Shown one piece after another: positions 41,656 through 61,415 of a stretch of 64,000 nt of DNA. Source of the stretch: Alphaproteobacteria bacterium (GTDB taxonomy: Bacteria > Pseudomonadota > Alphaproteobacteria > SMXQ01). Within the stretch, counting starts at the first letter, position 1, and each line of letters opens with the position of its first letter. The stretch is taken from NCBI GenBank assembly GCA_009380075.1, contig WHSO01000004.1, positions 23,078 through 87,077 on the forward strand, in the 5' to 3' direction. A program made the position numbers and the translations under genes. Under the pieces are notes generated by a model, which had not been told where the DNA came from, did not search any database, and worked only from the letters and a program-made list of their open reading frames with translations.

Positions 41656-41961
41656 TCAGTCATCCGGTTCGTTCCTGCCGGTATCCTCGCCGAGGAATCC
41701 GTCGTTCCTGAAGGCCTTGCCTTCGACGTCGACAATGACGGCTTCTACCTCGCCGTTGTGGTCAATAATAACGGATTCGACATGACCAATGTCGTTCCCG
41801 GAGGTTGTACGAAGGTCCTTGCCGACAAGTTCGGTCGCTTGTATACGGGCACCTTGATGCATCTCGGACTTGCCCATGTCTCCCGCGGCAACAACGGGGG
41901 CGCCGAACAGCAGCGCGATTACGCTGGTAGCCGTTAGAAGTCCGTCCTTTCCGAAAATCAT
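41656..41961 (-). CDS. PRC-barrel domain-containing protein
   Basis: Signal peptide; ATELVGKDLRTTSGNDIGHVESVIIDHNGEVEAVIVDVEG. Confidence 0.85.
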   Translation of the reverse strand: MIFGKDGLLTATSVIALLFGAPVVAAGDMGKSEMHQGARIQATELVGKDLRTTSGNDIGHVESVIIDHNGEVEAVIVDVEGKAFRNDGFLGEDTGRNEPDD

Positions 41962-42046
41962 TGCATCACTCCTGTAAGCTAATATGAGTTTACAGCAACA
42001 CGGAATGGCATCGCGTTATGCCGCCAATCGTGTCACTTACTTTGAA

Positions 42047-42071
42047 AACGAGACCGCCACGAGAACGTTCC
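42047..42071 (-). promoter_or_regulatory. EcfG-type promoter GGAAC-N16-CGTT
   Basis: Forward AACG agaccgccacgagaac GTTCC, 86 nt upstream of PRC-barrel gene. Confidence 0.8.
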
Positions 42072-42127
42072 ACTTGATCTTGGCGTAAAATTCAAAAAAA
42101 CGTGAGATCACTGACATCCAGGAAAGG

Positions 42128-42704
42128 CTAGGATGCTGCACCGCGCTCGTGCACGTGAACATTTCTGGCGCCAAGGCGGGCAAAGATCCTTTGGGCTTTT
42201 TCCTCGTCTCCCGGTTTCTTGATCTTCACCCAGAGAACGATGCCCTTATGGTCGGCCTGCTCCCGCAGAAATTGCCTGCGCACATTACCGATCCGGTATC
42301 CCAGTCCCGCAACCAGGGCGATCACGATTCCCCCGACGATCAACGCGCCGAGAACCGCCAGCAGCGCGCTGCCGCCATTGACCACGATGACGGCGCTGGC
42401 GGCAAAGGCTGCGACCACGCCGATCATGCCCGTAGCCAAAGCCCGCCCTTGCCGTACATCCGTGTGGGAGACAGGTGACGCTCGCTCGGCAGCGGGATTG
42501 TCCGCAAGTTCCACCGTATCCGTCCGCAGGTGTTCCGGCAGAAGCACGTTGTGCCGTGCCAGGAGGCTCAAGTCGGCGCGATCCCAGCCCGAACTGGTGA
42601 ACTTGGCAAGTGCGGCCTCAAGGTCCCGTGACGAACGCAGGAGACCCACCACTTCGTTGTAGGTACTTCCGTCATCTTCCCTGCTTTCCGTTTGAAGTAA
42701 CACT
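42128..42704 (-). CDS. general-stress-protein-like two-TM protein
   Basis: EVVGLLRSSRDLEAALAKFTSSGWDRADLSLL; two TM segments; GTG start with SD AGGAG. Confidence 0.65.
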
Positions 42705-42800
42705 CTAATGACTCCTATTCCCGGTTGCGACAACCACATACTCCACGCCTGGATATCACCTCCTCAGGCAATTGGCGCAGACATGAAATTCTGGATAACT

Positions 42801-42826
42801 AACGCCAGCATCGCTTTGCGGGTTCA
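42801..42826 (-). promoter_or_regulatory. near-match EcfG promoter TGAAC-N17-CGTT
   Basis: Forward AACG ccagcatcgctttgcgg GTTCA; one mismatch in -35. Confidence 0.45.
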
Positions 42827-42877
42827 GCCGGCGAGGCGCGAAGTTTGCACAGCCCCTTCTTGCGTCTCCCCGACGAG

Positions 42878-42902
42878 GGAACTTCGGACGCTCAGAAGCG
42901 TT
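42878..42902 (+). promoter_or_regulatory. EcfG-type promoter GGAAC-N16-CGTT
   Basis: GGAAC ttcggacgctcagaag CGTT, 34 nt before the lipoprotein gene. Confidence 0.8.
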
Positions 42903-42935
42903 TATGTCTGCGTGTAGATAAGGAAGAAGACAAGA

Positions 42936-43415
42936 ATGTCTGGCAATCTGCGTGAAAACCTGACGATTGTGGCCACGGCGGCCGCAGTTATCGCTTTTAC
43001 GGCCGTGGCTTCTTGTGCACCGCTACACTCACCGCCCACGAAGGTCGAAGAAACCCGGCCGACGGTGAGCTACAAGTACTCCACGGATGAAGAGCTGATT
43101 CAGGCCCGTCCACAGGCGGCAACATTTTGCAGCCAATATCAGGCGACTCCGCGAGCCGCTCGAATCACAACGGATGCGGATGGCGCAAAAGTCGTCGTAT
43201 TCGAGTGCGTTACCTCGTTGCCGCCCCCGCCGCCCAATCCACCGAACCTCAATCAGCATCTCACCTATACCTACCAGACGGACGCTGAGCTTATGAACGC
43301 CTGGCAGAGTGCCCAGGATTTCTGCATGAAAAACGGGAGACAGTATGTCGCCTCCAATATCACGCAGAACGTGAACGGTACCAAGACCGTGACTTTCCGC
43401 TGTACCCCTGCCTGA
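42936..43415 (+). CDS. putative lipoprotein with two tandem about 50-aa repeats
   Basis: Lipobox-like AVASC; YKYSTDEELIQA..FC..GAKVVVFEC and YTYQTDAELMNA..FC..GTKTVTFRC. Confidence 0.75.
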   Translation: MSGNLRENLTIVATAAAVIAFTAVASCAPLHSPPTKVEETRPTVSYKYSTDEELIQARPQAATFCSQYQATPRAARITTDADGAKVVVFECVTSLPPPPPNPPNLNQHLTYTYQTDAELMNAWQSAQDFCMKNGRQYVASNITQNVNGTKTVTFRCTPA

Positions 43416-43448
43416 CGGCGAATCCCTCTCCAGAGCCCTCAAAGCAAT

Positions 43449-43470
43449 TGGCCGGCCTCTGGGCCGGCCA
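43449..43470 (+). terminator. rho-independent-like terminator
   Basis: TGGCCGGCC-tctg-GGCCGGCCA followed by TTTCCTT. Confidence 0.65.
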
Positions 43471-43507
43471 TTTCCTTGCGCTACGCTCGGCCGAGCGTGC
43501 GGCTTGA

Positions 43508-43939
43508 TCAAGGAGGATTCCGTCGCATCAGACCCACTACCACTCCCAGGGCAACAGCCGTCAGTACGGCCGATGAAGGCTTCCGCTGGATTCGGGCGAC
43601 GGTTTCCCTCACCACGAAATCCGTTAGGTCCTCCGCCTCGTGAGACAGCATTCCGTGAAGTGAGCGCGAGGTGAGCGCGGTAACCCGGCGGCGGCGGTTC
43701 GTCGCGATAATGAGCAGGACGCCGCCGATTAGAGCGAGTACGGCGGCAGTACCTAGCGCAGCCAGATGGGCCGGCATCTCCTGGGCAAGGGTGAGGTACC
43801 CGGCAGCAATGGCAAAGCCCGCGGAAACCAGGAATACGAGCCCGGCGCACGCAAAAACGGATGCGATGGCGGCGCGTTGCCGGATGCCGCTTCCGATCTT
43901 GGCGGCAACACCATTAAGTGCATCGAGAGCATGCAGCAT
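43508..43939 (-). CDS. phage holin family / DUF1469-like membrane protein
   Basis: Two TM segments with RAAIASVFACAGLVFLVSAGFAIAAGYLTLA; next to DUF883 gene. Confidence 0.55.
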   Translation of the reverse strand: MLHALDALNGVAAKIGSGIRQRAAIASVFACAGLVFLVSAGFAIAAGYLTLAQEMPAHLAALGTAAVLALIGGVLLIIATNRRRRVTALTSRSLHGMLSHEAEDLTDFVVRETVARIQRKPSSAVLTAVALGVVVGLMRRNPP

Positions 43940-43956: not shown

Positions 43957-44262
43957 TTAACGTCGCGAGAGAAACTGGGAAAGGACGAGCCCTACGCCGA
44001 ACGCGATCAAAAGGCCCTGGAAAGGATGTTCCTTTACGGCATTCTCCACGGCCTCCACCGATTCCTGTCCTTTCGTGTTGATCTCATCCGCGACCGAGGC
44101 CGCCGACTTGCGCGCCTGTCGCGCCACACTTGATGCTTCCGCCTTCAACTGGTCCGTCAGGGACTTGCTCAGGGAAGAAACATCCTTTGAAAGCTGTTCC
44201 ACGGAGTGACGAAGCTCATCGAAATCCTTTTTCAGGGCGTCGGCTTCGGTTTGGGCTGCCAT
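43957..44262 (-). CDS. DUF883 family protein (ElaB/YqjD-like)
   Basis: Helical N-terminus; VKEHPFQGLLIAFGVGLVLSQFLSRR C-terminal TM. Confidence 0.85.
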   Translation of the reverse strand: MAAQTEADALKKDFDELRHSVEQLSKDVSSLSKSLTDQLKAEASSVARQARKSAASVADEINTKGQESVEAVENAVKEHPFQGLLIAFGVGLVLSQFLSRR

Positions 44263-44389: not shown

Positions 44390-44587
44390 CTACAGAGACC
44401 TTTCCCAGTCCGCGATCTGCTTCTCAGCTTCTTCTTTCGCAACGCCATATTTTTCCTGCAGCTTGCCAACCAGGATCTCCCGGTTTCCATCGATTTGATC
44501 GAGTTCATCGTCGGTGAGCTTGCCCCACTTCTTCTTCACAGCGCCCCCAACCTGCTTCCATTTTCCTTCAATCTGGTCCCAGTTCAT
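44390..44587 (-). CDS. CsbD family protein
   Basis: MNWDQIEGKWKQVGGAVKKKWGKLTDDELDQIDGNREILVGKLQEKYG. Confidence 0.93.
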   Translation of the reverse strand: MNWDQIEGKWKQVGGAVKKKWGKLTDDELDQIDGNREILVGKLQEKYGVAKEEAEKQIADWERSL

Positions 44588-44633: not shown

Positions 44634-44658
44634 AACGGTAATCACGCTGAATTGTTCC
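44634..44658 (-). promoter_or_regulatory. EcfG-type promoter GGAAC-N16-CGTT
   Basis: Forward AACG gtaatcacgctgaatt GTTCC, 47 nt upstream of CsbD. Confidence 0.82.
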
Positions 44659-44790
44659 GTGACGCGTCTCCTCGCGGGGAACCCGGCCCGATGTGATTCG
44701 TTTGCACATGAGGGCGTCGAGATGCCACCCGGACATCATGCGTGGCGTCGGGCGCCCTTTAAAAATCGTGGATGACGGCGCAATTCTCAG

Positions 44791-45258
44791 ATGTTATCCA
44801 GCCTCTTCGAAACCGAGACACCCCTCCTGCAACTGACGCTCCGACTGTGTCTTGCCCTCGTTTTCGGTGGGATGATCGGTATCGAACGCGAAATTAAGAA
44901 GCGGCCCGCAGGCCTGAGGACCAATATGATGGTTTCGCTTGCGGCTGCGCTGTTCACGCTCCTCGCGGTGGAATTGATTGGCGACAGCCAGGAAGCAGAC
45001 AACATCATGCGCGTCGATCCACTGCGTACGATAGAAGCGGTGATCGCCGGCGTCGCATTTCTGGGAGCGGGGGCGATCATACGAGGGGGTGACGACGTCA
45101 AGGGACTCACGACAGGCGCAAGCCTCTGGGTGTCCGGCGCCATCGGCGTCGCCTGTGGAGGCGGTTACTACACGATTGCCATGATAGCCACGATCCTCGC
45201 CGTTATCGTCCTCTATGTCATCGGCGTGCTTGAGGACCGGCTTTCGAAGCGCGACTGA
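44791..45258 (+). CDS. MgtC/SapB family membrane protein
   Basis: LALVFGGMIGIEREIKKRPAGLRTNMMVSLAAALFTL; GVAFLGAGAIIRGGDDVKGLTTGASLWVSGAIGVACG. Confidence 0.92.
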   Translation: MLSSLFETETPLLQLTLRLCLALVFGGMIGIEREIKKRPAGLRTNMMVSLAAALFTLLAVELIGDSQEADNIMRVDPLRTIEAVIAGVAFLGAGAIIRGGDDVKGLTTGASLWVSGAIGVACGGGYYTIAMIATILAVIVLYVIGVLEDRLSKRD

Positions 45259-45306: not shown

Positions 45307-45486
45307 TCACATGGGCGGCGGTACGCTGCGCCCCCGAATCCCGAAGATCAGCGCCAGCACAAAGAGAACGAGAAATACAAAAAAGAGGATTTGGGCGATA
45401 CCCGTTGCCGCAGCGGCAATGCCGCCAAAACCCAGGACGCCGGCGACGATGGCAATCAAGAGACAAACTACGGCCCAGTAAAGCAT
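45307..45486 (-). CDS. DUF1328 (YtjA-like) small membrane protein, 59 aa
   Basis: Hand translation [59 protein letters not shown]; absent from supplied ORF track. Confidence 0.88.
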
Positions 45487-45538: not shown

Positions 45539-45563
45539 AACGACGTCGACGGACTCCGGTTCC
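45539..45563 (-). promoter_or_regulatory. EcfG-type promoter GGAAC-N16-CGTT
   Basis: Forward AACG acgtcgacggactccg GTTCC, 53 nt upstream of DUF1328. Confidence 0.82.
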
Positions 45564-45645: not shown

Positions 45646-45670
45646 GGAACAAAGATCCTGTACCCGCGTT
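45646..45670 (+). promoter_or_regulatory. EcfG-type promoter GGAAC-N16-CGTT
   Basis: GGAAC aaagatcctgtacccg CGTT, 75 nt upstream of the EncFtn GTG start. Confidence 0.82.
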
Positions 45671-45744
45671 TTCCGATATGTATGGCAATGCAAAGGCATA
45701 GCCGTGCACCATTTGTATTGAATCGATGGACGGGAAGAAGAGCA

Positions 45745-46119
45745 GTGACGAACAGTACGTCATTACACGAGAACAGCGAAAAGCTTGGCGTTGCGACGCT
45801 TGACAGGCACCGCGCCATTGTCTCTCTCATGGAAGAGTTGGAAGCGGTCGACTGGTACAGCCAGCGAGAGAAAGCGGCGGGAGATGACGAATTGCGCCGC
45901 ATACTCGCGCACAATCGCGACGAGGAGAAAGAACATGCGGCCATGCTCATTGAATGGCTGCGTCGCAATGACGCCGCCTTCGCTGACCACCTCAAGACTT
46001 ATCTATATTCGCAAGGCTCAATCGTACAAGCCGAGCGCGAAGAAACAGGAGATTCAAAAAGTGCAGACGGGGCTTCGTCCCTGAGGGTTGGGACGCTTCG
46101 CAGTAGGGGGGCGGAATGA
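45745..46119 (+). CDS. encapsulated ferritin (EncFtn) with C-terminal encapsulin-targeting peptide
   Basis: LDRHRAIVSLMEELEAVDWYSQR...RILAHNRDEEKEHAAMLIEWLRRND; C-terminal SLRVGTLRS cargo-like tail; overlaps encapsulin ATG. Confidence 0.9.
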   Translation: MTNSTSLHENSEKLGVATLDRHRAIVSLMEELEAVDWYSQREKAAGDDELRRILAHNRDEEKEHAAMLIEWLRRNDAAFADHLKTYLYSQGSIVQAEREETGDSKSADGASSLRVGTLRSRGAE

Positions 46120-46932
46120 GCTCCCTCAACAGAAAACTGGCGCCCCTTTCCGACGCCGCATGGCAGTCGATCGACAACGAGGCGGAGCAAGTCCTCAAGG
46201 TGATGCTGGCGGGACGCAAGCTCGTCGATTTCAACGGACCTCTCGGGTGGGAAACCAGCGCCATAGATATCGGGCGGATAGAGAACGCGAAGCGCACGGA
46301 CGACCGCAATGTGAGCGTCCACGTCCGCAAGGTTCAGCCTCTGGCTGAACTTCGCCGGGAATTCGAGATCGCCAGAAGCGAAATCGATGCCATCGACCGC
46401 GGCGCCAAGGACGCGGACCTTGACCCTGTCGTGAGCACCGCACGAGATATGGCCGTGGCCGAGGATTCGGCGCTGTTTGGCGGCCTGCCGGAGGCGAACA
46501 TCGGTGGTATCTGTCCGCTGTCAGAACACAAGCCGCTCAAGATCAGTTAAGGAGTACCACAATTATCCCGGCGTGGTCGCCAGGGCCATCTCGACATTGC
46601 GAGAAGCCGGCGTCGACGGGCCCTACGCGATCGCTCTTGGACGCCGGTGCCTTACGGGACTCAATGAAACGACGGTCAATGGTTTCCCCGTACTCAACCA
46701 TGTCGCAAGCCTGCTCGATGTACCGCCGATTGCAGCACCCGCGATCGACGGCGCGCTTGTCCTGTCAACCAGAGGGGGCGATTTCGAGCTTTCGGTGGGA
46801 CGCGACTTCTCGATCGGCTACCTGGACCATGATTCCCGCACGGTCAGCCTTTTCATGGATGAAAGTTTCACTTTTCGGGTGCTTGGAGCGGAGGCAGCGG
46901 TTCCTCTTGTGTACGGGACGCAGAACCGATGA
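46116..46932 (+). pseudogene. family 1 encapsulin shell protein, coding frame broken near 46548
   Basis: N-half MSSLNRKLAPLSDAAWQSIDNEAEQVLKVMLAGRKLVDFNGPLGWETSA...; C-half in +1 frame YHNYPGVVARAISTLREAGVDGPYAIALG...RGGDFELSVGRDFSIGYLDHDSRTVSLFMDESFTFRVL. Confidence 0.88.
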
Positions 46933-46962: not shown

Positions 46963-47211
46963 CTAGCGTCGACCATTCCGGGCAAGGGCATCGATAGCCA
47001 TTTGTATCCTTCGGACCATGTGACGCCCTTCACATCCAGGAGATCTGTTCTCCAAAGGACATTGCAACAGTTCGTTCTCCTCCCATCTGCGAAGTATGTT
47101 CCGCTTCGCAGTGCGGTCGAGCCGAGGATCCGACACAGCATTCTCCGGATACTCGAAAACGCGCGCCGGGTTCGTCATTGCCTCATTGATACTGTATCGC
47201 CTGAAGAGCAT
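46963..47211 (-). CDS. small conserved hypothetical protein (paralog of 55317..55556)
   Basis: YSINEAMTNPARVFEYPENAVSDPRLDRTAKRNILRRWEENELLQCPLENRSPGCEGRHMVRRIQMAIDAL. Confidence 0.7.
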   Translation of the reverse strand: MLFRRYSINEAMTNPARVFEYPENAVSDPRLDRTAKRNILRRWEENELLQCPLENRSPGCEGRHMVRRIQMAIDALARNGRR

Positions 47212-47279
47212 CGATTTCCCACTCGCCCATTGCCGCGTCGGCGGGATAAAGCTTCGTCCCCGTTTCGACGCCACCGGTA

Positions 47280-47305
47280 AACGCCCTTCGGATCAGCGCA
47301 GTTCC
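47280..47305 (-). promoter_or_regulatory. EcfG-type promoter GGAAC-N17-CGTT
   Basis: Forward AACG cccttcggatcagcgca GTTCC; supports start at 47211 rather than 47274. Confidence 0.8.
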
Positions 47306-47335: not shown

Positions 47336-49297
47336 GTGTTATCGTGCCGGGACGCTTCCATAACAACGCAAGAGAATTCATTGCCGCTGCGTGATCACGA
47401 CGCGTTTCTACTCGGGCTGGGCACGGCTTTGATCGTCGTGGTCGCGACGGCCGATTTTTACTTGCCGCCGTATGTCGTTTTCAGTCTTGGCCACGCCTGC
47501 ATCATCCTGATCGCACTGCTCGCGCGTTCGCCGCTGGTCGCACTAGCCCTTGCGACGCTTGCAACGATCGCGTCCTTTGCCCCTTGGATGATTGACGGAT
47601 CGGCGCGCTACGATTTTTTGACGATTGCTAACCTGGGGCTCGTGGTTGCGGCGATCTGGATCGTGGCGGCCCTGGTGTATTTCATTTCCCGCGTGAAACC
47701 CGGCGTCGGGACGTCAAGGCGATCGGTCAACCGCGACAACGTCTATGAGGCCCTGTTCAACGGGACGTTTCAGTTCGTGGCCGCACTGGACCTCAATGGC
47801 AAGGTAGTCGATGCGAATCAGACACTGCGCGATTTCGCCGGCCTGTCCTCCAACGAAATTCAGTCCATGCCGATCTGGATGCTCCCGATTTTCCAGAACA
47901 ATGAGGAGATACAGGAGCGTCTGAAGGAGAACGTAAGAAAGGCAGCAGAAGGAGATTTTTCGCGTGACGAGTTCATCGTTTCGGGGGTCGGCCAACAATC
48001 GACGGTTATTGATTTTTCGCTCAAGCCCATACGAAGGGAGGACGGTGCCATTGAACAAATCATCATGGAAGCGCGGGATATAACCGAAACGCGTACACAG
48101 CAGGAAATGCTGGTCCAGGCCCAGAAGATGGAGGCCGTCGGTCAACTGACCGCGGGGGTGGCACATGATTTCAATAATCTGCTCACGGTTATCGTCGGCA
48201 ACCTCGAATTGCTGGAGAAAAGGTTCGAGGGTGACGAACGGTTCCTGGACCGGCTTCAACGGGCGACAAATGCCGCCTTCCGGGGACAGGCGCTGACGCA
48301 GCAGCTTCTGGCGTTTTCGCGCCGGCAATCGCTTAGCCCGTCGGTCGTGGACATCAACACCTTGCTGCAGCAAATGAGCCAGCTCTACGACGTGCTGGGA
48401 GATAACATAACCGTGGAGTTCGACCTTACCGACCATCCGATTTACTGCTACGCGGACCCGAACGTACTCGAGGCGGCATTGCTCAATATCGCTATCAACG
48501 CCCGTGATGCCATGCCCGATGGAGGCGTCATTCGTTTCCACAGCGAACGCACCGTCCTGGGCGAGTATTATCACGGTAAGGTCTCGGACCTGCCGCCCGG
48601 AAGCTACATATGCCTGACAATCAGCGATACGGGCGAAGGCATGTCGGAGGATACCGTCGTCCAGGCCTTCGATCCGTTTTTCACGACCAAGCCCGAGGGC
48701 AAGGGAACCGGGTTGGGACTTAGCATGGTTTATGGCTTCGTCAAGCAGTCCGGCGGCGATGTCAAGATATACTCCGAGAAGGGAAAGGGAACGACCCTTC
48801 GTCTGTATCTGCCAGAAACGGACAAGGCCCCGCCGGAGCCCGATGACGAACAATCGGGCCACACGACCGACCTCGAGCACGAAAAGATTTCGGTCCTGCT
48901 CGTCGACGACGACGAAACGATTCGCCTGACGATTCTCGATGCCCTGGCGCCATACGGATATGATATCGACGTCGCGGCGAACGGCGACAGCGCCATCGAT
49001 CTGATCCGCTCTGGAAAGACGTATGATCTGGTTGTGACGGATGTCGTCATGGAGGGCCAAGCCGGCGGCGCAGAAGTCGCACGCGAGGCCCGCGCCAGTA
49101 TGCCCGAGGTTGCCGTTGTGTTCTGTTCCGGTTTCCCGCGCCAGAATCTCGAAGGTGACGATGCATCAGTGGATGGCGCGTTCTTTCTGCCGAAACCGTT
49201 CCATAACCATGAGCTCGTCAAGATGATCGAAAATGCCCTTTCGAGGGCACGAAGAATTTCCGGCCTCGGGCAGGATGGACCGCATACCGAAAAGTAG
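47336..49297 (+). CDS. membrane hybrid sensor histidine kinase (TM, PAS, HisKA, HATPase_c, REC)
   Basis: AGVAHDFNNLLTVIVGNLELL H-box, NIAINARDAMPDGG N-box, KGTGLGLSMVYGF, C-terminal SVLLVDDDETIR receiver. Confidence 0.93.
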   Translation: MLSCRDASITTQENSLPLRDHDAFLLGLGTALIVVVATADFYLPPYVVFSLGHACIILIALLARSPLVALALATLATIASFAPWMIDGSARYDFLTIANLGLVVAAIWIVAALVYFISRVKPGVGTSRRSVNRDNVYEALFNGTFQFVAALDLNGKVVDANQTLRDFAGLSSNEIQSMPIWMLPIFQNNEEIQERLKENVRKAAEGDFSRDEFIVSGVGQQSTVIDFSLKPIRREDGAIEQIIMEARDITETRTQQEMLVQAQKMEAVGQLTAGVAHDFNNLLTVIVGNLELLEKRFEGDERFLDRLQRATNAAFRGQALTQQLLAFSRRQSLSPSVVDINTLLQQMSQLYDVLGDNITVEFDLTDHPIYCYADPNVLEAALLNIAINARDAMPDGGVIRFHSERTVLGEYYHGKVSDLPPGSYICLTISDTGEGMSEDTVVQAFDPFFTTKPEGKGTGLGLSMVYGFVKQSGGDVKIYSEKGKGTTLRLYLPETDKAPPEPDDEQSGHTTDLEHEKISVLLVDDDETIRLTILDALAPYGYDIDVAANGDSAIDLIRSGKTYDLVVTDVVMEGQAGGAEVAREARASMPEVAVVFCSGFPRQNLEGDDASVDGAFFLPKPFHNHELVKMIENALSRARRISGLGQDGPHTEK

Positions 49298-49576: not shown

Positions 49577-50095
49577 ATGGAGGGTCAAATGAATCAGGTC
49601 GCCCAACAGATCGAGGTTCACGTGCCTGCGCTGATGCGCTACGCAAGGGCGCTTGCTCACAATCCGACGGCCGCGGAAGATCTGGTTCAGGAATGCGTTG
49701 TCCGGGCCCTGACAAAAGCGAGCCTTTACAAACCCGGCACCAACCTGCGCGCCTGGCTTTTTACAATCCTGCACAATCTCTATGTCAGTGAAATGCGGCG
49801 CAACAAGAAATGGAAGGAAGCCGCAAATCCAGAAGCCGCGCTAGACTCCCTGTCGGTGGCGCCAAGACAGACACATGCGGTCATGCTTCGTGCCGTAAGG
49901 GAAGCCATGAGGCGTCTCCCCAGCCAGCAGAAGATGATCCTGTATTTCATCGGCGTCGAGGGCAAATCCTACAAGGAGGTATCGCGGGAGCTCGGCATAC
50001 CTGTGGGAACCGTGAAGTCCCGTTGCTCGCGCGCGCGTGACACCCTGCAACAGGAACTGGACAACAGGACCGCATCCTTCCCGCACGCCGCGTGA
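49577..50095 (+). CDS. ECF RNA polymerase sigma factor (EcfG-like candidate)
   Basis: AAEDLVQECVVRALTKASLYKPGTNLRAWLFTILHNLYVSEMRR; LPSQQKMILYFIGVEGKSYKEVSRELGIPVGTVKSRCSRARDTL. Confidence 0.9.
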   Translation: MEGQMNQVAQQIEVHVPALMRYARALAHNPTAAEDLVQECVVRALTKASLYKPGTNLRAWLFTILHNLYVSEMRRNKKWKEAANPEAALDSLSVAPRQTHAVMLRAVREAMRRLPSQQKMILYFIGVEGKSYKEVSRELGIPVGTVKSRCSRARDTLQQELDNRTASFPHAA

Positions 50096-50220: not shown

Positions 50221-50535
50221 TTACTTCACGGTGATGTTGTTCTCGACGTTGCGGACACCTTCGACGGACCGGGCGAGTTCACCCGCGCGCCTCTTTTCCT
50301 CGGCGCTGTTCACGAATCCACTCAACTGAACCGTGTCCCTGAAGGTCGTCACATCGATCGGAAAGATACTGACGGACTTGTCCTGAGCAATCTTGGCACG
50401 AACCTTGGTACTGATCACGGTCGCATCGACGTATTCGCCCGTGCTCTCCTGCGTCGGGGTCGACTGACACGCGACGGCCGACAGGGCGAATATCGCCATG
50501 GATGCGGCGACAACGGTTTTCGGCACATTGATCAT
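50221..50535 (-). CDS. BON domain-containing lipoprotein
   Basis: Lipobox SAVAC; VDATVISTKVRAKIAQDKSVSIFPIDVTTFRDTVQLSGFVNSAEEKRRAGELARSVEGVRNVENNI. Confidence 0.9.
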   Translation of the reverse strand: MINVPKTVVAASMAIFALSAVACQSTPTQESTGEYVDATVISTKVRAKIAQDKSVSIFPIDVTTFRDTVQLSGFVNSAEEKRRAGELARSVEGVRNVENNITVK

Positions 50536-50603
50536 CGATCACTCCTCCGGTTTTCTTGCCGGCGTGCGGAAACCAGTGGTTCCGCAGCCCTCTCACCTAT
50601 AAA

Positions 50604-50629
50604 ACGCTTGGATGGTTGCCGGGGTTCCC
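50604..50629 (-). promoter_or_regulatory. EcfG-type promoter GGAAC-N17-CGTT
   Basis: Forward AACG cttggatggttgccggg GTTCC, 69 nt upstream of BON gene. Confidence 0.8.
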
Positions 50630-50770: not shown

Positions 50771-51478
50771 CTAGCGAAAGGCGAGATCCGCCACGACAGG
50801 CAGATGGTCCGAAGAAGGATACGCTTGTCGGTCGATCCAGGAGCGCACCACGGTTCCGCCCGGCCGGACAAGAATGCGATCCAGGGCAAGCACCGGAAAC
50901 CGCGCCGGGAAACTGGCGTGCGCCGTATAATCGTCGAAGATCCCGGAAAAGAGACTCCAGGCGGCGCCGCGACGGCTCCATTCGTTCAGGTCACCAAGCA
51001 GCATCATGGGCGTGGATAAGTCGGAGTCGACAATCTCTCGGAGCAGAGCCGCTTGCCGGCGGCGTTCCGCCCGTCTGACCCCAAGATGGGTTGAGATGAC
51101 CCGCACCACGGCTCCGGTCGGAAGCCGAACGCAGGCTTCCATTACTTTTCGCTTCTCCCGGCCTGGTATCGAAATGTCGTACACCTTGCGCTTGTCCAGT
51201 TTGAAGCGACTGGCCAGCATCTGTCCGTAGTCGCCGTCGGCGCCGGAAATCGACCAGGCCTCATGACCGTGAAGCCCGACTTGGCTGCGGAGGTACCCGT
51301 ACGTATCCGTCTGTTGCTCTGATTTTCTTCGGGTATCAACCTCCTGAAATGCCGCAACATCAGGCGCAATTCTCTTTATAACCTCGCCGATACGCTCGAT
51401 ATCGTGACGCCCGTCGCTGCCGACACATCCGTGGATGTTCCAGGTCGCGACCCGAATCCCCTTTTTCTTGTTATTCAT
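50771..51478 (-). CDS. endonuclease/exonuclease/phosphatase family protein (YbhP-like)
   Basis: IRVATWNIHGCVGSDGRHDIERIGEVIKRIAPDVAAFQEVD; LLGDLNEW; SSDHLPVVADL. Confidence 0.88.
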   Translation of the reverse strand: MNNKKKGIRVATWNIHGCVGSDGRHDIERIGEVIKRIAPDVAAFQEVDTRRKSEQQTDTYGYLRSQVGLHGHEAWSISGADGDYGQMLASRFKLDKRKVYDISIPGREKRKVMEACVRLPTGAVVRVISTHLGVRRAERRRQAALLREIVDSDLSTPMMLLGDLNEWSRRGAAWSLFSGIFDDYTAHASFPARFPVLALDRILVRPGGTVVRSWIDRQAYPSSDHLPVVADLAFR

Positions 51479-53657
51479 TGGGCACGGCACGCCGCTTTTC
51501 TGCAAAGCGTTGTATGGCAAGCCCCAGGGAGAACATGGTGGCCATTCCCAACCCGAGGAAGAGGATGTGAATTGGGTCCGGATCCGTTAGCGATTGAACA
51601 AACTGGTACCCCATCAGGGTCAGTATCAGGATTCCCGGGAACATACCGAGGACGGTGCCGAGGAGAAAATCTGCGAGCCGGACCCGAATGGCGCCCGCAG
51701 CAAAGTTGACCAAGGTAAATGGCGCGACAGGCAGCATCCGCATTGCCATGACACTCAGGATTCCGCGATTCGCGAGAATCCGGTTGAGCCGGCTCACTTT
51801 TGGACCGAGAAAGCCGCGAAGCGGCCGCCCCCCGATGAGACGGCCCAGCTGAAAGGTCGCAACAGCGCTCAGGAGAGAGCCCCCAAGAGCAAGGGTAATC
51901 GCGGTAGGCGGTTCGAACATCATGCCCGTAACGGCGATAAGAACGGTAACGGGAAAGGCGATCATCCCGCCGATCAGGTATGCGAGTATAATGACGAACG
52001 GCATGAAGGAATCGCTGCCGAATCCCCTCAGCCAACCAATCAGTTCCTTTGGGTTCGCCAGATCGGCCAATGGCGTATAGCGCCAGAGCGCAACGAATGC
52101 GAGTACGACAAACGCAATCGCCAAGAATCTTCCCCAGCGCGTCGGCAATGCACTTGACGTGTTGGCGCCGAAAAGGTTCCCGAAGACCGCAGGCGGCAAT
52201 ATGGGCCGTTCGGGATCGGCGAACTGTTCGATTGTCGAAGGAGCCCCCTCCTTCGATGCGTTTCCGAGCTCAACGGGTCGGAGCGTCCGCGGACGGCCCA
52301 GAAGGCCGTCCACTGCCTTCAGAAAGGTGGGATGCGTCTCGAGCGCCTGCTCCACATCATCGATTTTGACACCGAGATGTTCCGCGATCAGTCTGTTGCG
52401 AACCTTTGTTATCGATATTCTGTGATCCATAGACTCGGCCTTCACGACGAGATCGCATTCGGAGTCCGTTCCCATCGAACGATTGTTCAGATTGGCCGAG
52501 CCCACACGCAGGAACCGGTCGTCAACAACCATGAATTTCGAGTGCACGAAGATTCCCTTGTTTGCCTCCTCCCCCGGTAGGCATGGATACATGAGGCGGA
52601 CACGAGCGCCGACACCCGCATCGTACAGATGGCGCATGAATCGATGACGTCCCGCCCCCATGCTCTGATCTTCCAGCCATCCCTTGGCTAGGTTGGGCCC
52701 GACGATCAGAACCTCCAGTCGCGGGTTTGCGATCATCCGTTCGGCGAGAGAATGTGCGATACAATTCGCCGTCAGATACTGGGACTCGATATAGATCGCG
52801 TCGGCCGCGGCACCTATCGAACTCATGTACAGGGATTCAACCTCGCGTACTTCGCGACGCCCCCGGTATGCGGGGCATGTCCGGGCAATCGCGATGGGAA
52901 CGTCCCTGAAGTCCGGAACCGTATTGCCCGGCCAGGGGTCACCCGTGGGAAAAAGCGCCGGGACAGTGCCGCTGGTGGAATCTCGCCAACGCTTGCGGAC
53001 GAGCTGCGCGAGCGCACTCGCTGCATCGCCGTCGACTACCATCTGGATGTCGTGAAACGGGGGATAAATCTCTCCCCCTGGATCGCGCCGTCGAGGGTCG
53101 GCTCCGTCATGTGAGGGCGTATCCCAACGACGAATGGTCAGGTCGATACCGCCGGAAAAAGCGACGGCATCGTCGATCACCACGATTTTCTGATGATGAC
53201 TTGATGCAAATGGGAACTGATCATCCAGACAGATGGAAATCTGTTCCGGCGTCATCCAGTTCAGGTTGACCATGGGTAGCGGCTCCCGCTCCAGCGCATA
53301 GAGCATCGAATAGTCCCAGAGCACGATGTTGATTCTGAGTTCTGGACGACGGGTCACGAGCTCGACGAGGAACGGTCCCAATTCTTCTGGGTAACCGTCG
53401 TCCGCCTTGCCCGACGGCCCGACAAGTCGCATGCGGCTATCGACATCCCATCCGACAAGAAAGACCCTTCGTCGCGCCAAGAGCAGGCTTTCCCGGAGGG
53501 CACCAAAGTACGTGGCAGCGTCGATCAGAACCGCTGCGCGCCTTGTCGTCGCGACTTGCCAGCAATCTTCATTTTGGATGAGCGTTCCCCGTTGGAACCC
53601 CGCCCTCCTTGAAGGGCGCTTCATCTTTTCTGATAACCACGCAAGCTGATGGGCCAT
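51471..53657 (-). CDS. phospholipase D/cardiolipin synthase-like protein fused to C-terminal VTT (DedA/TVP38-type) membrane domain
   Basis: HHQKIVVIDDAVAFSGGIDLT and HSKFMVVDDRFLRVGSANLNNRSMGTDSE HKD motifs; C-terminal multi-TM GRLIGGRPLRGFLGPKVSRLNRIL...PFTLVNFAAGAIRV. Confidence 0.9.
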   Translation of the reverse strand: MAHQLAWLSEKMKRPSRRAGFQRGTLIQNEDCWQVATTRRAAVLIDAATYFGALRESLLLARRRVFLVGWDVDSRMRLVGPSGKADDGYPEELGPFLVELVTRRPELRINIVLWDYSMLYALEREPLPMVNLNWMTPEQISICLDDQFPFASSHHQKIVVIDDAVAFSGGIDLTIRRWDTPSHDGADPRRRDPGGEIYPPFHDIQMVVDGDAASALAQLVRKRWRDSTSGTVPALFPTGDPWPGNTVPDFRDVPIAIARTCPAYRGRREVREVESLYMSSIGAAADAIYIESQYLTANCIAHSLAERMIANPRLEVLIVGPNLAKGWLEDQSMGAGRHRFMRHLYDAGVGARVRLMYPCLPGEEANKGIFVHSKFMVVDDRFLRVGSANLNNRSMGTDSECDLVVKAESMDHRISITKVRNRLIAEHLGVKIDDVEQALETHPTFLKAVDGLLGRPRTLRPVELGNASKEGAPSTIEQFADPERPILPPAVFGNLFGANTSSALPTRWGRFLAIAFVVLAFVALWRYTPLADLANPKELIGWLRGFGSDSFMPFVIILAYLIGGMIAFPVTVLIAVTGMMFEPPTAITLALGGSLLSAVATFQLGRLIGGRPLRGFLGPKVSRLNRILANRGILSVMAMRMLPVAPFTLVNFAAGAIRVRLADFLLGTVLGMFPGILILTLMGYQFVQSLTDPDPIHILFLGLGMATMFSLGLAIQRFAEKRRAVPNE

Positions 53658-53815: not shown

Positions 53816-53841
53816 AACGAACGAGCGCCGCATTCGGTTCC
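53816..53841 (-). promoter_or_regulatory. EcfG-type promoter GGAAC-N17-CGTT
   Basis: Forward AACG aacgagcgccgcattcg GTTCC, 159 nt upstream of PLD gene. Confidence 0.7.
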
Positions 53842-53980: not shown

Positions 53981-54728
53981 TCAAGTCTCGTCGAGGCGAA
54001 ACATGTAGCCGACGTTCCTGATCGTCTTGATAAGCGCGGGCTTTCGGTGATCCTGCTCGATCTTTCGACGCAGCCGGCCAACCTGCACGTCGATACTCCG
54101 GTCGAAAGCCTCGGTCCTGCCGTTTCGCGAGTAATCGAGAAGCTGTTCTCTCGATAACGCCCGATTCGGATGGGAAACGAACGCGATCAGAAGATCAAAC
54201 TCACCACTCGTCAACTCCACCGATTTCCCTCCCGAAGATACGAGAGACCGGCGCGAGCAATCGAGTGTCCACCCGGAAAATCTGTAGGTTTCGGGTGTTG
54301 CCCGGATGCGTTCGGGACCGCTTATCGAAGTCGAGTAATTTGGGCTGGGTTCACCATTCTGCCCAAATCCGCGCCGGCGCAATATGCTCTTAACGCGGGC
54401 AAGGACCTCTCTCATGTTGAACGGCTTGACAAGATAGTCGTCGGCGCCGACCTCCAGCCCCGCGACCCGATCGACCACGTCTTCCTTGCCGCTGATGATG
54501 AAAATCCCGATGCTCGGGTATTGTTCCCGCAGCCTGCGGGCGATGGTAAATCCATCCTCGTTCGGGAGCTTCAGGTCGAGCAGGACCAGTTCCGGCACCT
54601 TTTGCCGAATTTGCCCGAACAACGACGCGCCGTCTTTCGCTTCGCGAACGTCGAACCCTTCGTCGCTGAGATACTCCTTCACGACGTCACGGATTTCCGA
54701 ATCATCGTCAACAACAATGATTGTCATA
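53981..54728 (-). CDS. OmpR-family response regulator
   Basis: MTIIVVDDDSEIRDVVKEYLSDEGFDV, LVLLDLKLPNEDG, VGADDYLVKPFNMREVLARVKSILRR; wHTH C-terminus. Confidence 0.95.
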
Positions 54729-55167
54729 TCAAGTCGATCCTGATCTTCGGAAGCCCCTATGAATCGTAGCGCCAAGCGAGAGTTAGATGGGGGTCTGGCC
54801 TGAACTATACGCGTTCGTAAACCTTACGCCACAAATTGATGCACCGCCCGCTCGTTCCCCCCAAGATAGTTTTGGGCATGTTCGAAGGCAACTTTGCCCC
54901 CGCAAGTGGTTACGTGTCCCGGCAAAGCGTACTCCAGGCTCTAAGGACGTGTCCCATGCATCGGAAACTTCCCTGGATGTGGATACCCCGATAGCCAAGT
55001 CTATCTTCCGGCGGAGGACCGTTCGCCCGATCGTCCGCTCAACGGCCGAGCCAGTCCAGTAAAGGATGCCGCTTGGAAGCGTAGAAAGTGGTGCTTACGC
55101 CGCCCGGACGCGGGCATATACAGGACCGTTGAATCGTACGGAAATTCCCAATCCGGCCAAGGCTCTG

Positions 55168-55193
55168 GAACACGGTTCCGTACCGACGCGTTG
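55168..55193 (+). promoter_or_regulatory. EcfG-type promoter GGAAC-N17-CGTT
   Basis: GGAAC acggttccgtaccgacg CGTT, 124 nt upstream of 55317 gene. Confidence 0.75.
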
Positions 55194-55316: not shown

Positions 55317-55556
55317 ATGAGCAGTAAAAACTATACCATTCACGAGGCCCTGGTGGACCCCAAGCGCATATTTGGGACGCCCGAACTGGTGCTGTCGGAA
55401 CCCCGCCTTGACCGGGAAGCTAAACTTAGAATCCTGCGCAACTGGGAGCAGGACGCGGAAGCGCTCCTGAGAGCAGAGAATGAGGGTATGGAGGGAGACG
55501 GCCCGGCCCTGCTGCAGCGTGTCCGACGGGCCATTGCCTCTCTAACGGAAAAGTAA
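55317..55556 (+). CDS. small conserved hypothetical protein (paralog of 46963..47211)
   Basis: MSSKNYTIHEALVDPKRIFGTPELVLSEPRLDREAKLRILRNWEQDAEALLRAENEGMEGDGPALLQRVRRAIASLTEK. Confidence 0.78.
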   Translation: MSSKNYTIHEALVDPKRIFGTPELVLSEPRLDREAKLRILRNWEQDAEALLRAENEGMEGDGPALLQRVRRAIASLTEK

Positions 55557-55671: not shown

Positions 55672-55992
55672 TCAGGCCTTGCCCTCGATCGCAACGACAT
55701 CGGACACAGAACTCTCCTGGCGGATCGCCTTCAGTTCCCGGTATTCCTGGGAGCCGTACCACGATCTGAGGCTCCCCATATCGGGAAACCTGATGATCGT
55801 CACCCGTTCCGGCGCGTCGTCATCACGATTGGCACCTGATTCCCAGTCGCCTTCAAGGACCTCGAAGCCGTCGCAACGGGCCAGGACTTCGCCACCGAAT
55901 CTTTCGATGGTTTCGTCCACGGTACGGGCGTAGGCCCTGAGTTTCTCGGAATCGCTGATGTCTTTTCTGTGCGCTATGAAGTACGCGGCCAT
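55672..55992 (-). CDS. DUF1330 domain-containing protein
   Basis: AAYFIAHRKDISDSEKLRAYARTVDETIERFGGEVLARCDGFEVLEG...RVTIIRFPDMGSLRSWYGSQEYREL. Confidence 0.88.
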   Translation of the reverse strand: MAAYFIAHRKDISDSEKLRAYARTVDETIERFGGEVLARCDGFEVLEGDWESGANRDDDAPERVTIIRFPDMGSLRSWYGSQEYRELKAIRQESSVSDVVAIEGKA

Positions 55993-56091: not shown

Positions 56092-56604
56092 TTACGACCG
56101 AAACGCATACTTTGAGTTGTCGGTTAGGTCAGGCGTGTGAGGGCTCTTCATGGATCGCGCGATTTCCCAAACCTTGCGGAGAGGGTTCGTACTTACATCC
56201 CATCGTTCGGCCTGATCGAGGGTAATACGGATCAGCCTCAAATCTTCATCGTCGACCCCATGCTCGAACCAGGCGACGGCCTCGACAACCGCGTATTTGC
56301 GCGCCTTTTCCGGGTCACGCAGGACCGTCGCCTCGCCGGAGACCGAAATATAGATCTCCTTTGCGCTATCGACCAATGTCACGCCAACACGCCCGTCCCG
56401 TTCGATTTCAGGGATCTTGTGATCTTCGGCGCGAGTAAAGACGTAAAGGGCTTCTTCGTTCCGGTCGGCACATATCAGGACAGGGCGACTGCGAAGGACC
56501 CCATCATCGTGTGTGATGAGCATCCCGATCCGGATCGCGGCTATGTCGGACCACAGCGACTCCAGATCGTTGCTATGGGACTCCTGATGAGGTTCATTTG
56601 CCAT
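56092..56604 (-). CDS. pyridoxamine 5'-phosphate oxidase family / general stress protein 26-like
   Basis: LWSDIAAIRIGMLITHDDGVLRSRPVLICADRNEEALYVFTRAEDHKIPEIERDGRVGVTLVD. Confidence 0.88.
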   Translation of the reverse strand: MANEPHQESHSNDLESLWSDIAAIRIGMLITHDDGVLRSRPVLICADRNEEALYVFTRAEDHKIPEIERDGRVGVTLVDSAKEIYISVSGEATVLRDPEKARKYAVVEAVAWFEHGVDDEDLRLIRITLDQAERWDVSTNPLRKVWEIARSMKSPHTPDLTDNSKYAFRS

Positions 56605-56713: not shown

Positions 56714-56977
56714 TTACTTTTCGGGCTTGGTGTAGTCCCGCACCACCGCGGGATCCTGCTCACGTGCCTGCTCCCGCCCTTTGGCTTCTGCCTCTTTCAG
56801 CTCTTCGCGTTCCGGCCCTTGAAGGGCTTCCTTGGCTTTCTCGGCGGCCGCGTCCACCTTTCCCGATTTGGCGAATTCGCGCGCCTGTTTGTTGAACTTT
56901 CGCGCAGCTGTCCGGTTGCCCTCGCCTTCGTTCTGGCCTGTGCTTCGCTGGGTGGCATTCGATTTCGGTTCACTCAT
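56714..56977 (-). CDS. small hydrophilic hypothetical stress protein
   Basis: MSEPKSNATQRSTGQNEGEGNRTAARKFNKQAREFAKSGKVDAAAEKAKEALQGPEREELKEAEAKGREQAREQDP. Confidence 0.7.
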   Translation of the reverse strand: MSEPKSNATQRSTGQNEGEGNRTAARKFNKQAREFAKSGKVDAAAEKAKEALQGPEREELKEAEAKGREQAREQDPAVVRDYTKPEK

Positions 56978-57103: not shown

Positions 57104-57128
57104 AACGCGGGCGCCACGACCCGGTTCC
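57104..57128 (-). promoter_or_regulatory. EcfG-type promoter GGAAC-N16-CGTT
   Basis: Forward AACG cgggcgccacgacccg GTTCC, upstream of 56977 gene (and downstream PPOX gene). Confidence 0.78.
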
Positions 57129-57166: not shown

Positions 57167-57673
57167 CTACGTGACGGAGATGCAATAGCAATCGGCGTCC
57201 TTGGCCACGGCGCTGGAAACGCTGCCCATGATCAGCCCCTTGAGGTTTCCGTGCCCACGATTACCCATGACGATGACGTCAGCGTTTTCGTTCTTTGCTG
57301 TCGCCAGGATTCGCTCCGCCGCGACACCCTGTTCGACAATGGTCCGCACATTCTTTGCGCCTCTCTCCTCCGCGGCCCTTCGGGAATCCTGCATCAACCG
57401 GTCCGCCGCCATCTGGGCCTGTTCATGCGCGCGCTGGAGTTCCTGCGCTGCAAGGCTGCCGGTATCTCCCTTTCCCGGCGTCACCGGTGGAACGACGAAT
57501 CCAAGAGCGTGCGCATCCGGGTAATACAGCCAGTCCGGGGCTTCATCGGTGGGATTGATGACATGGACCAAAGTGATCTCGGCACCGTGGACTTTGGCAA
57601 GATCGCCGGCCAGTTCGACAGCTCGCGTCCCGGACTCCGACCCGTCAGTCGCCGCCAGTATCTTCGTGTACAT
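57167..57673 (-). CDS. universal stress protein (UspA family)
   Basis: MYTKILAATDGSESGTRAVELAGDLAKVHGAEITLVHVI...GNRGHGNLKGLIMGSVSSAV. Confidence 0.95.
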   Translation of the reverse strand: MYTKILAATDGSESGTRAVELAGDLAKVHGAEITLVHVINPTDEAPDWLYYPDAHALGFVVPPVTPGKGDTGSLAAQELQRAHEQAQMAADRLMQDSRRAAEERGAKNVRTIVEQGVAAERILATAKNENADVIVMGNRGHGNLKGLIMGSVSSAVAKDADCYCISVT

Positions 57674-57746: not shown

Positions 57747-57772
57747 AACGCCGGCTTCCCCGCGCAGGTTCC
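57747..57772 (-). promoter_or_regulatory. EcfG-type promoter GGAAC-N17-CGTT
   Basis: Forward AACG ccggcttccccgcgcag GTTCC, 74 nt upstream of usp. Confidence 0.8.
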
Positions 57773-59227: not shown

Positions 59228-59317
59228 CACGGGCTCCAAAGGGAAAGTCGTATTGCTGCAATAACATCAGCGACAAGGAGGGGTTGTACAATACCCCCTG
59301 ATTCATGGCCCGAAAAA

Positions 59318-59342
59318 GGAACCGCCATCACGGGGGAGCGTT
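59318..59342 (+). promoter_or_regulatory. EcfG-type promoter GGAAC-N16-CGTT
   Basis: GGAAC cgccatcacgggggag CGTT, 21 nt before a 43-codon ORF. Confidence 0.78.
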
Positions 59343-59362
59343 GACATTTATGGAGACTAACG

Positions 59363-59494: not shown

Positions 59495-59708
59495 GGACGC
59501 GGACTTTGCCGTCCACGTGTTTTGCCTTGGGAAGCGCACCGCCGAAGACGCTGCCGGGGCACCCGCCCCAACCGTTCCCCGAGCACCCGCCGTTACCCGA
59601 TCCGGAACCCAAACGGCCGCCGCGGGAACTACCTCCGGAGGAGCCCCAGGAATTGCCGCCGCGCCAACTACCGGACGAAATCCCACCGCCAGATGACCGC
59701 CCTGATGG

Positions 59709-59733
59709 GGAACTCAGCGGCCGCTCCATCGTT
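59709..59733 (+). promoter_or_regulatory. EcfG-type promoter GGAAC-N16-CGTT
   Basis: GGAAC tcagcggccgctccat CGTT, 35 nt before PRC-barrel gene. Confidence 0.8.
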
Positions 59734-59767
59734 GTCTTTATGACAAACGCCAGAAAGGAGATTCAGC

Positions 59768-60214
59768 ATGCCTCGCTTAAAAACATCGGGTGTGGCGTTG
59801 TTTGGATTGGCTATTGCACTTGCTCCCTTGGGCCTGGCCGCCGACGAGATGGTTTCAGGGACTTCCGGTGGAGCCTCCAATGGCACGGAAAGCGCGGGGC
59901 AGTCTCCGAGCAAGGCAAAGAGCGGCAAAGACCTTGTCTTTATCATTGACGCGCCAGACCTCCGCAAAGTCGGTAAGGATTTGGCGGGACCGCGGTTCAC
60001 AACGCTGATCGGCCAGGAAGTTTACAGCAACTCTGGCAAAAAGATCGGAAAGATCGAGGATTTTGTCATGGCCAGCCGAGGTGAAATCTACGCGGTCATC
60101 GATTCCAGCGACGGCCCGATCGAAAAGCTGGTGAAGATGGGCGATGGTGAAATGCTCATCCTCCCGCTACGAGAGCTTCGAAAGGCCGCCCTACCCGGTG
60201 AAAAAAGGCGATAA
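59768..60214 (+). CDS. PRC-barrel domain-containing protein
   Basis: Signal peptide; FTTLIGQEVYSNSGKKIGKIEDFVMASRGEIYAVIDSS. Confidence 0.87.
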   Translation: MPRLKTSGVALFGLAIALAPLGLAADEMVSGTSGGASNGTESAGQSPSKAKSGKDLVFIIDAPDLRKVGKDLAGPRFTTLIGQEVYSNSGKKIGKIEDFVMASRGEIYAVIDSSDGPIEKLVKMGDGEMLILPLRELRKAALPGEKRR

Positions 60215-60284
60215 GCCGGTGATGACGGCTGCGCAAGTGCGCACTCAATAGGCATCGCGTGCCCAGAGATAAGGAGAAATATCC

Positions 60285-60509
60285 ATGCTTCGACATACCC
60301 TGATTCATACCAGCCTGGCCGTTGCGCTCCTCGGTCTTGCCGCCTGCGGCTCAACGCCCACGGAACGCGGCATAACCGGCGCCGGTATCGGTGGTGCGGC
60401 GGGCTACGCAGTTGGCGCGCCGGTCACGGGCGCCGTCGTTGGCGGCGCAGCCGGCGTATTCACCGACGAGGACGATATCAATCTCGGCGAGCCGATCTGG
60501 AAGTGGTAG
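60285..60509 (+). CDS. glycine-zipper lipoprotein (OsmB/YMGG-like)
   Basis: Lipobox LGLAAC; GITGAGIGGAAGYAVGAPVTGAVVGGAAGVFT. Confidence 0.85.
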   Translation: MLRHTLIHTSLAVALLGLAACGSTPTERGITGAGIGGAAGYAVGAPVTGAVVGGAAGVFTDEDDINLGEPIWKW

Positions 60510-60659
60510 GGTCGGCCGAAATCTTGTCCTCTACATAAGAAACACGGTGGGCGGGCGTCAAGCCACGCTCGCCGTCGTGTGATCGGGTTAGGCCGTAGCG
60601 CCCCCTCCTGCAATAATGTCAGCCGTGACCACGAAAACCTCACTCGTGGACGCGCTTTT

Positions 60660-61091
60660 TTAGTGATGCTTTTCCGTTCCCTTGGACACGCCCTTTAGCG
60701 CCGTTGCGACGGGTCGTGTCTGGGGCACTTCCACTGCCAGGTCGCCGATCGAAACGATTCCGGTCAACCGTTTCTCCCGGTTGACGACCGGCAGCCGTCG
60801 AACCTGCTGCTTCTGCATGTTATGTACGGCCTGGGCTATATCCTCGTCCTCGTACACCCAGAACACGCCGTCGGACATGATTTCTCCGACGCTGACCTGC
60901 TTCGGATCCTGTCCTTCCGCGACGACCCGAAGAACGATGTCCCGGTCCGTGACCATGCCCTTCAAACGATCGTTTTCGCCGATGGGAAGAGCCCCGAAAT
61001 CACCGTTCCGCATAATAAGGGCCGCCTCCGCCACCGGCATATCGGGTGCCACGACCTGCACGTCTTTCGACATTACATCCTGAATCTTCAT
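60660..61091 (-). CDS. CBS domain-containing protein
   Basis: MKIQDVMSKDVQVVAPDMPVAEAALIMRNGDFGALPIGENDRLKGMVTDRDIVLRVVAEG... second CBS repeat. Confidence 0.94.
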   Translation of the reverse strand: MKIQDVMSKDVQVVAPDMPVAEAALIMRNGDFGALPIGENDRLKGMVTDRDIVLRVVAEGQDPKQVSVGEIMSDGVFWVYEDEDIAQAVHNMQKQQVRRLPVVNREKRLTGIVSIGDLAVEVPQTRPVATALKGVSKGTEKHH

Positions 61092-61132
61092 GACCATCTC
61101 CCTTGCGGACATTCATAACGCGTATTCGTCAG

Positions 61133-61157
61133 AACGCAGGCACGCCCTCAAGGTTTC
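61133..61157 (-). promoter_or_regulatory. near-match EcfG promoter GAAAC-N16-CGTT
   Basis: Forward AACG caggcacgccctcaag GTTTC, one mismatch in -35. Confidence 0.45.
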
Positions 61158-61276
61158 ACGTTTTTTTCCTCGCACCGGCAATTTCTCTTCATGCGTTACG
61201 AAGACTTTCGCTACCTGATCTCCCGGAGGCGCGCCGGCCGAGCAGCCCGGTATTTGTGGGACCGGTGGTCATTGCC

Positions 61277-61301
61277 GGAACTTTCGCCCTTCCCATGCGT
61301 T
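61277..61301 (+). promoter_or_regulatory. EcfG-type promoter GGAAC-N16-CGTT
   Basis: GGAAC tttcgcccttcccatg CGTT, upstream of 61416 gene. Confidence 0.75.
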
Positions 61302-61415
61302 TTTCCGGCGGAGGTCCCTGCGTGTTGTTCCGATGAAAAAAGTCGTTCGCTCCGTATGTACCGTTCCCCTGTCCTTCGACAGCCATCACGTCGAGGAGAT
61401 ATGGGGTCATGACGC

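Follow-up and report, generated by a model that had tools for sequence, protein, structure and literature searches.

The DNA analysed here is a 64,000-nucleotide (nt) stretch of contig WHSO01000004.1 from an alphaproteobacterial draft genome (the window), and it carries an island of closely spaced sites of the form GGAAC-N16/17-CGTT, the motif recognised by the alphaproteobacterial general-stress sigma factor EcfG. An exact scan of the window found 16 such sites, all within 42047-62873 (about 21 kb), and zero in positions 1-42046. We are highly confident that this promoter island is real and that a clustered EcfG-type stress regulon is its best interpretation. As the best explanation overall, we consider it likely that the regulon is read by sigma-B, a non-canonical EcfG-like extracytoplasmic function (ECF) sigma factor encoded among the sites.

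Density, placement and exactness of the sites

Ten of the 16 sites have a spacer of 16 nt and six a spacer of 17 nt; when spacings from 10 to 25 were scanned across the window, only 16 and 17 were enriched, each other spacing giving 0-3 matches. Dinucleotide shuffles of the window contained 1.45 +/- 1.17 exact sites, with a maximum of 6. In the whole draft genome (3,542,334 bases in 162 contigs, 97.4% complete), 84 exact sites were counted versus 44 for a reversed control pattern. With the island defined as window positions 41.6-64 kb (22.4 kb), 68 sites remain in about 3.52 Mb outside it, which predicts 0.43 per 22.4 kb, and the observed 16 amount to a 37-fold enrichment over the remaining genome (P about 5e-20 under a Poisson model). 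Whole-genome counts of the motif in relatives are uninformative alone, because the reversed-pattern control shifts with base composition. Taken together, sites with a single mismatch show only a small excess of density inside the island (17 in 22.4 kb) over the rest of the window (24 in 41.6 kb), and the island site set is therefore unusually exact. It has been reported that the -10 box is flexible in the general-stress promoters of Sphingopyxis (PMC7083833).

The sequence-only reading, an earlier description of the window, had proposed strong clustering and a genome-wide density comparison as its check; the clustering is borne out by the shuffles and the genome scan alike, and an equal motif density elsewhere was clearly not seen. 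All 14 exact sites that it listed are present, two with coordinates corrected (50604 and 55168 to 50603 and 55167), as are its two near-matches, TGAAC-N17-CGTT at 42801(-) and GAAAC-N16-CGTT at 61133(-); its list was nevertheless incomplete, 44678(+) and 62848(-) having been omitted, and the true total is 16.

All 16 sites are intergenic, though intergenic DNA makes up 23% of the stretch, and the next gene downstream is on the same strand in every case, its start lying 5-158 nt away for 15 of them; random placement would give a promoter-like appearance in 9.4% of cases. The earlier claim that the sites point towards a downstream gene holds throughout. The exception in distance is 59318(+), for which the closest called gene is 425 nt away. 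The extended -10 sequence of the island sites is approximately (G/T)CGTT(T/G)(A/T)(C/T).

Sigma factors of the island and the search for PhyR and NepR

The earlier account of clustered EcfG-type promoters stands, but it left unmentioned two ECF sigma factors and a hybrid kinase. Sigma-A (40035-40562, +) belongs to the anti-sigma-linked ECF group and is directly followed by its anti-sigma (40564-41517, +), which consists of an N-terminal domain and a single transmembrane (TM) segment (score 1.87 at residue 89), with a NepR-like core (LRRAFDPCLAEPIPQRL) ahead of the TM segment. Sigma-B (49589-50095, +) is EcfG-like and comes after a membrane hybrid histidine kinase (47336-49297, +) with PAS, HisKA, HATPase and receiver domains. 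On contig C26, the genes of a CheB-CheR hybrid kinase and a PRC protein precede a paralog that is 92% identical to sigma-B, and the kinases beside both copies match HisKA + HATPase_c, not the HWE/HisKA_2 type.

Regions 2.3-2.4 of sigma factors read the -10 element. In these regions, identity to the EcfGs encoded next to PhyR is 52% for sigma-B, 31% for a sigma factor on contig C138 and 22% for sigma-A, while these EcfGs are 55% identical among themselves; sigma-B is the best candidate for the reader because its regions 2.3-2.4 are EcfG-like, unlike those of sigma-A. The PhyR-adjacent ecfG genes of other alphaproteobacteria have the same exact GGAAC...CGTT motif upstream. Upstream of five close relatives of sigma-A the motif is GGAAC-N17-YGTC or TGTT, and upstream of other anti-sigma-linked sigmas it is GGAATA, so that the island sites are a poor fit to either group; sigma-A was judged the less likely reader from the upstream motifs of its relatives and the identity of its -10 region.

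Neither two Pfam domain models nor the full NCBIfam model detected PhyR in the genome; the NCBIfam model gives >300 bits for PhyR in each of two control genomes. Among ten family members, no protein passes the full-model cut-off. PhyR is likely absent from the genome, as judged from these searches. Candidates on contigs C58, C80 and C78 are other sigma factors, a PhyR-like receiver protein on C158 is without a sigma-like domain, and PhyR_sigma-like matches in the family members G004, G009 and G010 are not PhyR, all falling below the full-model cut-off and the G009 protein being an ECF sigma. A profile built from five NepRs recovers held-out NepRs in the PhyR-bearing genomes G022, G047 and G050; no soluble NepR was found with it in the present genome, where it matches only 40720-40794, inside the anti-sigma of sigma-A. 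The earlier remark that phyR and nepR are not visible in the window is thus extended, for PhyR, to the whole genome and the ten family members. Since PhyR was not found and the only NepR-like match lies in a membrane anti-sigma, the label of a standard PhyR-NepR-EcfG system would be wrong.

In the proposed mechanism, at least 16 transcription starts would be set by near-invariant GGAAC-N16/17-CGTT promoters, which would jointly activate genes for envelope, desiccation and osmotic functions and for iron storage (PRC, CsbD, DUF1328, BON, PLD-VTT, Usp, MgtC, EncFtn-encapsulin and others). Sigma-B and/or its C26 paralog would most likely read them, and sigma-B probably lies outside the standard partner-switch control, because PhyR and a soluble NepR were not found; candidate inputs are the hybrid kinase and the response regulator of the island (OmpR-type, 53981-54727, -), or the membrane anti-sigma with its NepR-like core. 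The sites with their clustering, placement and exactness, the sigma genes and the failed search for PhyR are direct observations; we infer from the sequence that the sites are transcribed, that they respond to stress, that sigma-B reads them and how sigma-B itself is controlled. That sigma-B reads the island promoters and that the island is run without PhyR-NepR is probable; more tentative is the picture of a self-contained regulon, in which a divergent EcfG-like sigma and dense canonical promoters, in a lineage without PhyR-NepR, would obey another input.

Several observations weigh against assigning the island to a sigma-B free of PhyR-NepR. Sigma-B stands outside the PhyR-linked EcfG clade in the tree (split support 99/99), and no particular likeness to EcfG is seen in its region 4.2. 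Upstream of the genes for sigma-B, the kinase and the response regulator no exact site is present, so that the usual autoregulation is missing; no anti-sigma gene adjoins sigma-B and none was identified for it. In addition, in a draft of this completeness and contig number, PhyR or NepR could sit in a gap. This last point is the opening for a canonical EcfG under PhyR-NepR, whose genes would lie in assembly gaps, the island being a dense part of an ordinary stress response. Such an arrangement fits the motif and target families, which match known EcfG regulons (PMC7083833, PMC6599016, PMC3892343), and the draft state of the assembly, but the PhyR models, so strong on their controls, find nothing here or in the ten family members, and the NepR profile, good on held-out NepRs, finds just the segment of the membrane anti-sigma; we regard it as unlikely. 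Slightly less likely again is that sigma-A, held by its membrane anti-sigma, reads the island and that the regulon answers envelope stress. Sigma-A borders the island and has the highest PhyR_sigma2 score among the sigmas of the genome, and the best NepR-like match of the genome lies in its partner; set against this are the YGTC or TGTT, not CGTT, upstream of its five relatives, the low identity of its -10 region to EcfG and the lack of a CGTT site before sigma-A, where a site of the type seen upstream of its relatives (GGAAC-N17-TGTC, 39910-39935, -) faces the neighbouring DUF4168 gene (39455-39781).

Two further alternatives concern the island itself. The GGAAC/CGTT pairs could be operators or other repeats and not promoters, since a palindrome of GGAAC and GTT(CC) is possible in principle, although nothing beyond the motif itself backs it. 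In all 16 sites, CGTT is followed by T, G or A and never by C, which rules out a palindromic operator GGAAC...GTTCC, and all 16 spacer sequences differ, which rules out a dispersed repeat; the restriction to two spacings together with the missing C therefore favours promoters over a palindromic operator, and with the consistent gene-ward orientation the operator explanation is very improbable. The island could also be a chimeric joint or a contaminant piece in a metagenome bin. Near 38 kb, the GC content (the share of guanine and cytosine) declines from about 0.65 to 0.58, and the tetranucleotide correlation of the island with the left flank is 0.84-0.87, versus 0.92-0.96 within the flank. The change is gradual across 38-42 kb, however, contig C100, which carries Ku and the same promoters, matches the island composition (0.90-0.92), and the nearly identical sigma-B of C26 is in the same bin, so that a chimera is improbable, though less so than operators. 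The compositional difference from the flank is as in horizontally acquired islands; no integrase, tRNA or insertion sequence was found at the left edge, and the right edge is beyond the contig end, where the window also ends.

Genes downstream of the sites and sites elsewhere in the genome

From the left, the site at 42047-42071(-), with a spacer of 16 nt, lies 85 nt from a PRC-barrel gene (41656-41961, -), and the next, also N16 (42878-42902, +), precedes a hypothetical gene (42936-43415, +) with paralogs on contigs C158 and C26. Two N16 sites then diverge, 44634-44658(-) serving CsbD (44390-44587) and probably also a DUF883-like gene (43957-44262) and a holin-like gene (43508-43939), and 44678-44702(+) serving an MgtC-family gene (44791-45258, +). 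The N16 site at 45539-45563(-) faces DUF1328 (45307-45486), and that at 45646-45670(+) precedes EncFtn, an encapsulated ferritin (45682-46119, +; PF22277, E 3e-36; TIGR04535), and the shell of a family 1 encapsulin (46116-46932, +); the latter is split over two frames, which match profile positions 1-143 and then 143-253, and either the gene is a pseudogene or the assembly is in error here. N17 sites lie before a small protein (site 47280-47305, -; gene 46963-47274), a BON lipoprotein (site 50603-50628, -; gene 50221-50535), PLD-VTT and an EEP-family gene (site 53816-53841, -; genes 51471-53657 and 50771-51520) and a second small protein (site 55167-55192, +; gene 55317-55556).

Further to the right, the N16 site at 57104-57128(-) faces the gene 56714-56977, possibly followed by a PNPOx-like gene (56092-56604) and DUF1330 (55672-55992), and the N17 site at 57747-57772(-) faces Usp (57167-57673). 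The distant N16 site 59318-59342(+) has as its nearest called gene the one that is served by the N16 site 59709-59733(+), namely a PRC-barrel gene (59768-60214), which is followed by a small lipoprotein (60285-60509). The one-mismatch site GAAAC-N16-CGTT (61133-61157, -) is upstream of a CBS-domain protein (60660-61097). The last two exact sites are an N16 site (61277-61301, +) before 61416-61928, whose product has a C-terminus weakly like ribosome modulation factor (RMF), and an N17 site (62848-62873, -) before 62443-62811 and a rhodanese gene (61999-62322).

Family assignments by profile searches comprise two PRC-barrel proteins, CsbD, DUF883-like, MgtC, DUF1328, EncFtn, encapsulin, BON, EEP-family, PLD-VTT, the response regulator, DUF1330, the pyridoxamine-oxidase-like protein, Usp, the CBS-domain protein, the RMF-like C-terminus and rhodanese; a fumarase also lies in the stretch, its label coming from sequence inspection alone. 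Among the targets, PRC, CsbD, DUF1328, BON, Usp and PLD-VTT are families characteristic of general stress responses. Clustering, orientation, spacing, genome-wide density and gene content all agree with the clustered stress regulon originally proposed. The poorly characterised families DUF1328, DUF1330, the 46963 and 55317 small proteins, PLD-VTT and the RMF-like protein, together with the EncFtn-encapsulin iron store, would accordingly become predicted members of one stress regulon. The two small proteins, 46963-47274(-) and 55317-55556(+), are paralogous, with no Pfam match and an exact EcfG-type site ahead of each.

Most of the 68 exact sites outside the island lie within called genes, a chance pattern, and about 20 are promoter-like. 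On contig C100, divergent exact sites stand between a Ku gene and a DUF3008 gene; Ku and DUF3008 are known general-stress targets, and both Ku and CsbD have been described as belonging to EcfG regulons (PMC7083833, PMC6599016). This Ku gene is followed by three consecutive open reading frames (ORFs; L032, 6392-8852, -) that look like pieces of LigD, perhaps split or frameshifted. The promoter-like sites of C158 serve two PRC-barrel genes and one single-domain response regulator, and others belong to a DUF305 protein (C14) and an AI-2E-type transporter (C76). The C158 response regulator (L033, 12397-12780, -) has its own exact EcfG-type promoter, and its receiver is the best match of the genome to the PhyR receiver (80 bits); it is a candidate regulator of the stress response.

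The NepR-like core, L..[YF]..V..EP[VIL]P..L at about residues 50-66 and just before the TM segment, is frequent in the single-TM anti-sigmas of the anti-sigma-linked ECF group (window 40720-40794, and downstream of the sigma gene in L049, L056, L103, L123 and others). In its strict form, it occurs in 33 of 94 candidate ORFs downstream of sigma genes, and several match a NepR profile at E 1e-5 to 1e-7; the soluble NepR may be related to this membrane anti-sigma family. Beside a sigma-B-like gene, a soluble anti-sigma of about 90 residues with the core and no TM segment (L068, 10631-10906, -) aligns to the cytoplasmic part of the membrane anti-sigmas (46% over 59 residues to L057); it has an exact GGAAC-N16-CGTT at 10963(-) and is a possible intermediate between membrane anti-sigmas and NepR. 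Elsewhere in the window, matches to a speF leader and the small RNA ar45 adjoin tRNA-Leu (8420-8651, -).

Comparison with relatives and known systems

EcfG promoters are usually treated as the output of PhyR-NepR; an exact, dense regulon with no detectable PhyR would show that the two are separable, and the island would offer a small system for studying how output separates from switch. A genus mate (G001) is without sigma-B, and few island genes match it by DNA, the genomes being only about 70% alike. In the family member G003 (92% complete), a NepR gene (L272, 1143-1415, -) is divergent from a non-canonical EcfG-like sigma similar to sigma-B (1757-2404, +), with exact or near-exact sites ahead of both and another ahead of a DUF1328 gene; the G003 ortholog of the island CsbD has exact sites upstream, and PhyR was not found in G003. 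It can be seen from the G003 sites that this promoter type is at home in the family.

With the PhyR-NepR-EcfG system (ECF15), known from Methylobacterium extorquens, Sinorhizobium meliloti (RpoE2), Caulobacter (SigT) and Sphingomonas melonis, the island shares the motif, its spacing and its distance to genes, as well as the target families PRC, CsbD, Ku, CBS and small hypotheticals (PMC7083833, PMC6599016, PMC6180224). Unlike that system, no PhyR or soluble NepR was found here, the sigma lies outside the clade and no general-stress promoter precedes it. The density also differs, with 16 sites in 21 kb versus 1-5 per 20 kb around six canonical PhyR-ecfG loci; around 12 orthologs of PLD-VTT there are 0-2 in each neighbourhood, and PLD-VTT was rejected as a general marker of such islands. 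The island is the densest among the compared loci, a small sample and not a survey.

Sigma-A and its single-TM anti-sigma share the architecture of the ECF26 pairs of S. meliloti (RpoE1, RpoE3, RpoE4 and RpoE6; PMC6180224), and it has been reported that the regulon of RpoE6 overlaps that of RpoE2 (PMC6180224); the -35 consensus of ECF26 is GGAATA (PMC6180224), whereas the island sites are all GGAAC. Among three plasmid neighbourhoods examined, one is a weaker parallel: the Ensifer adhaerens Corn53 megaplasmid (NZ_CP030264.1, L302) has CBS, sigma-B-like (37%), hybrid kinase (41%), CsbD (62%) and PNPOx relatives, and its 27.8-kb stretch, unannotated in the record, holds five exact sites at lower density and a different gene set. 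Another likeness is to EcfG2 of Rhizobium etli, a plasmid-borne, non-canonical and non-autoregulated EcfG (PMC3892343, PMC8103513), which is likewise a second EcfG-like sigma without its own nepR and is partly PhyR-independent (PMC3892343). R. etli differs in keeping phyR, nepR and ecfG1, and its EcfG2 prefers another promoter, whereas the promoters of the island have the canonical consensus.

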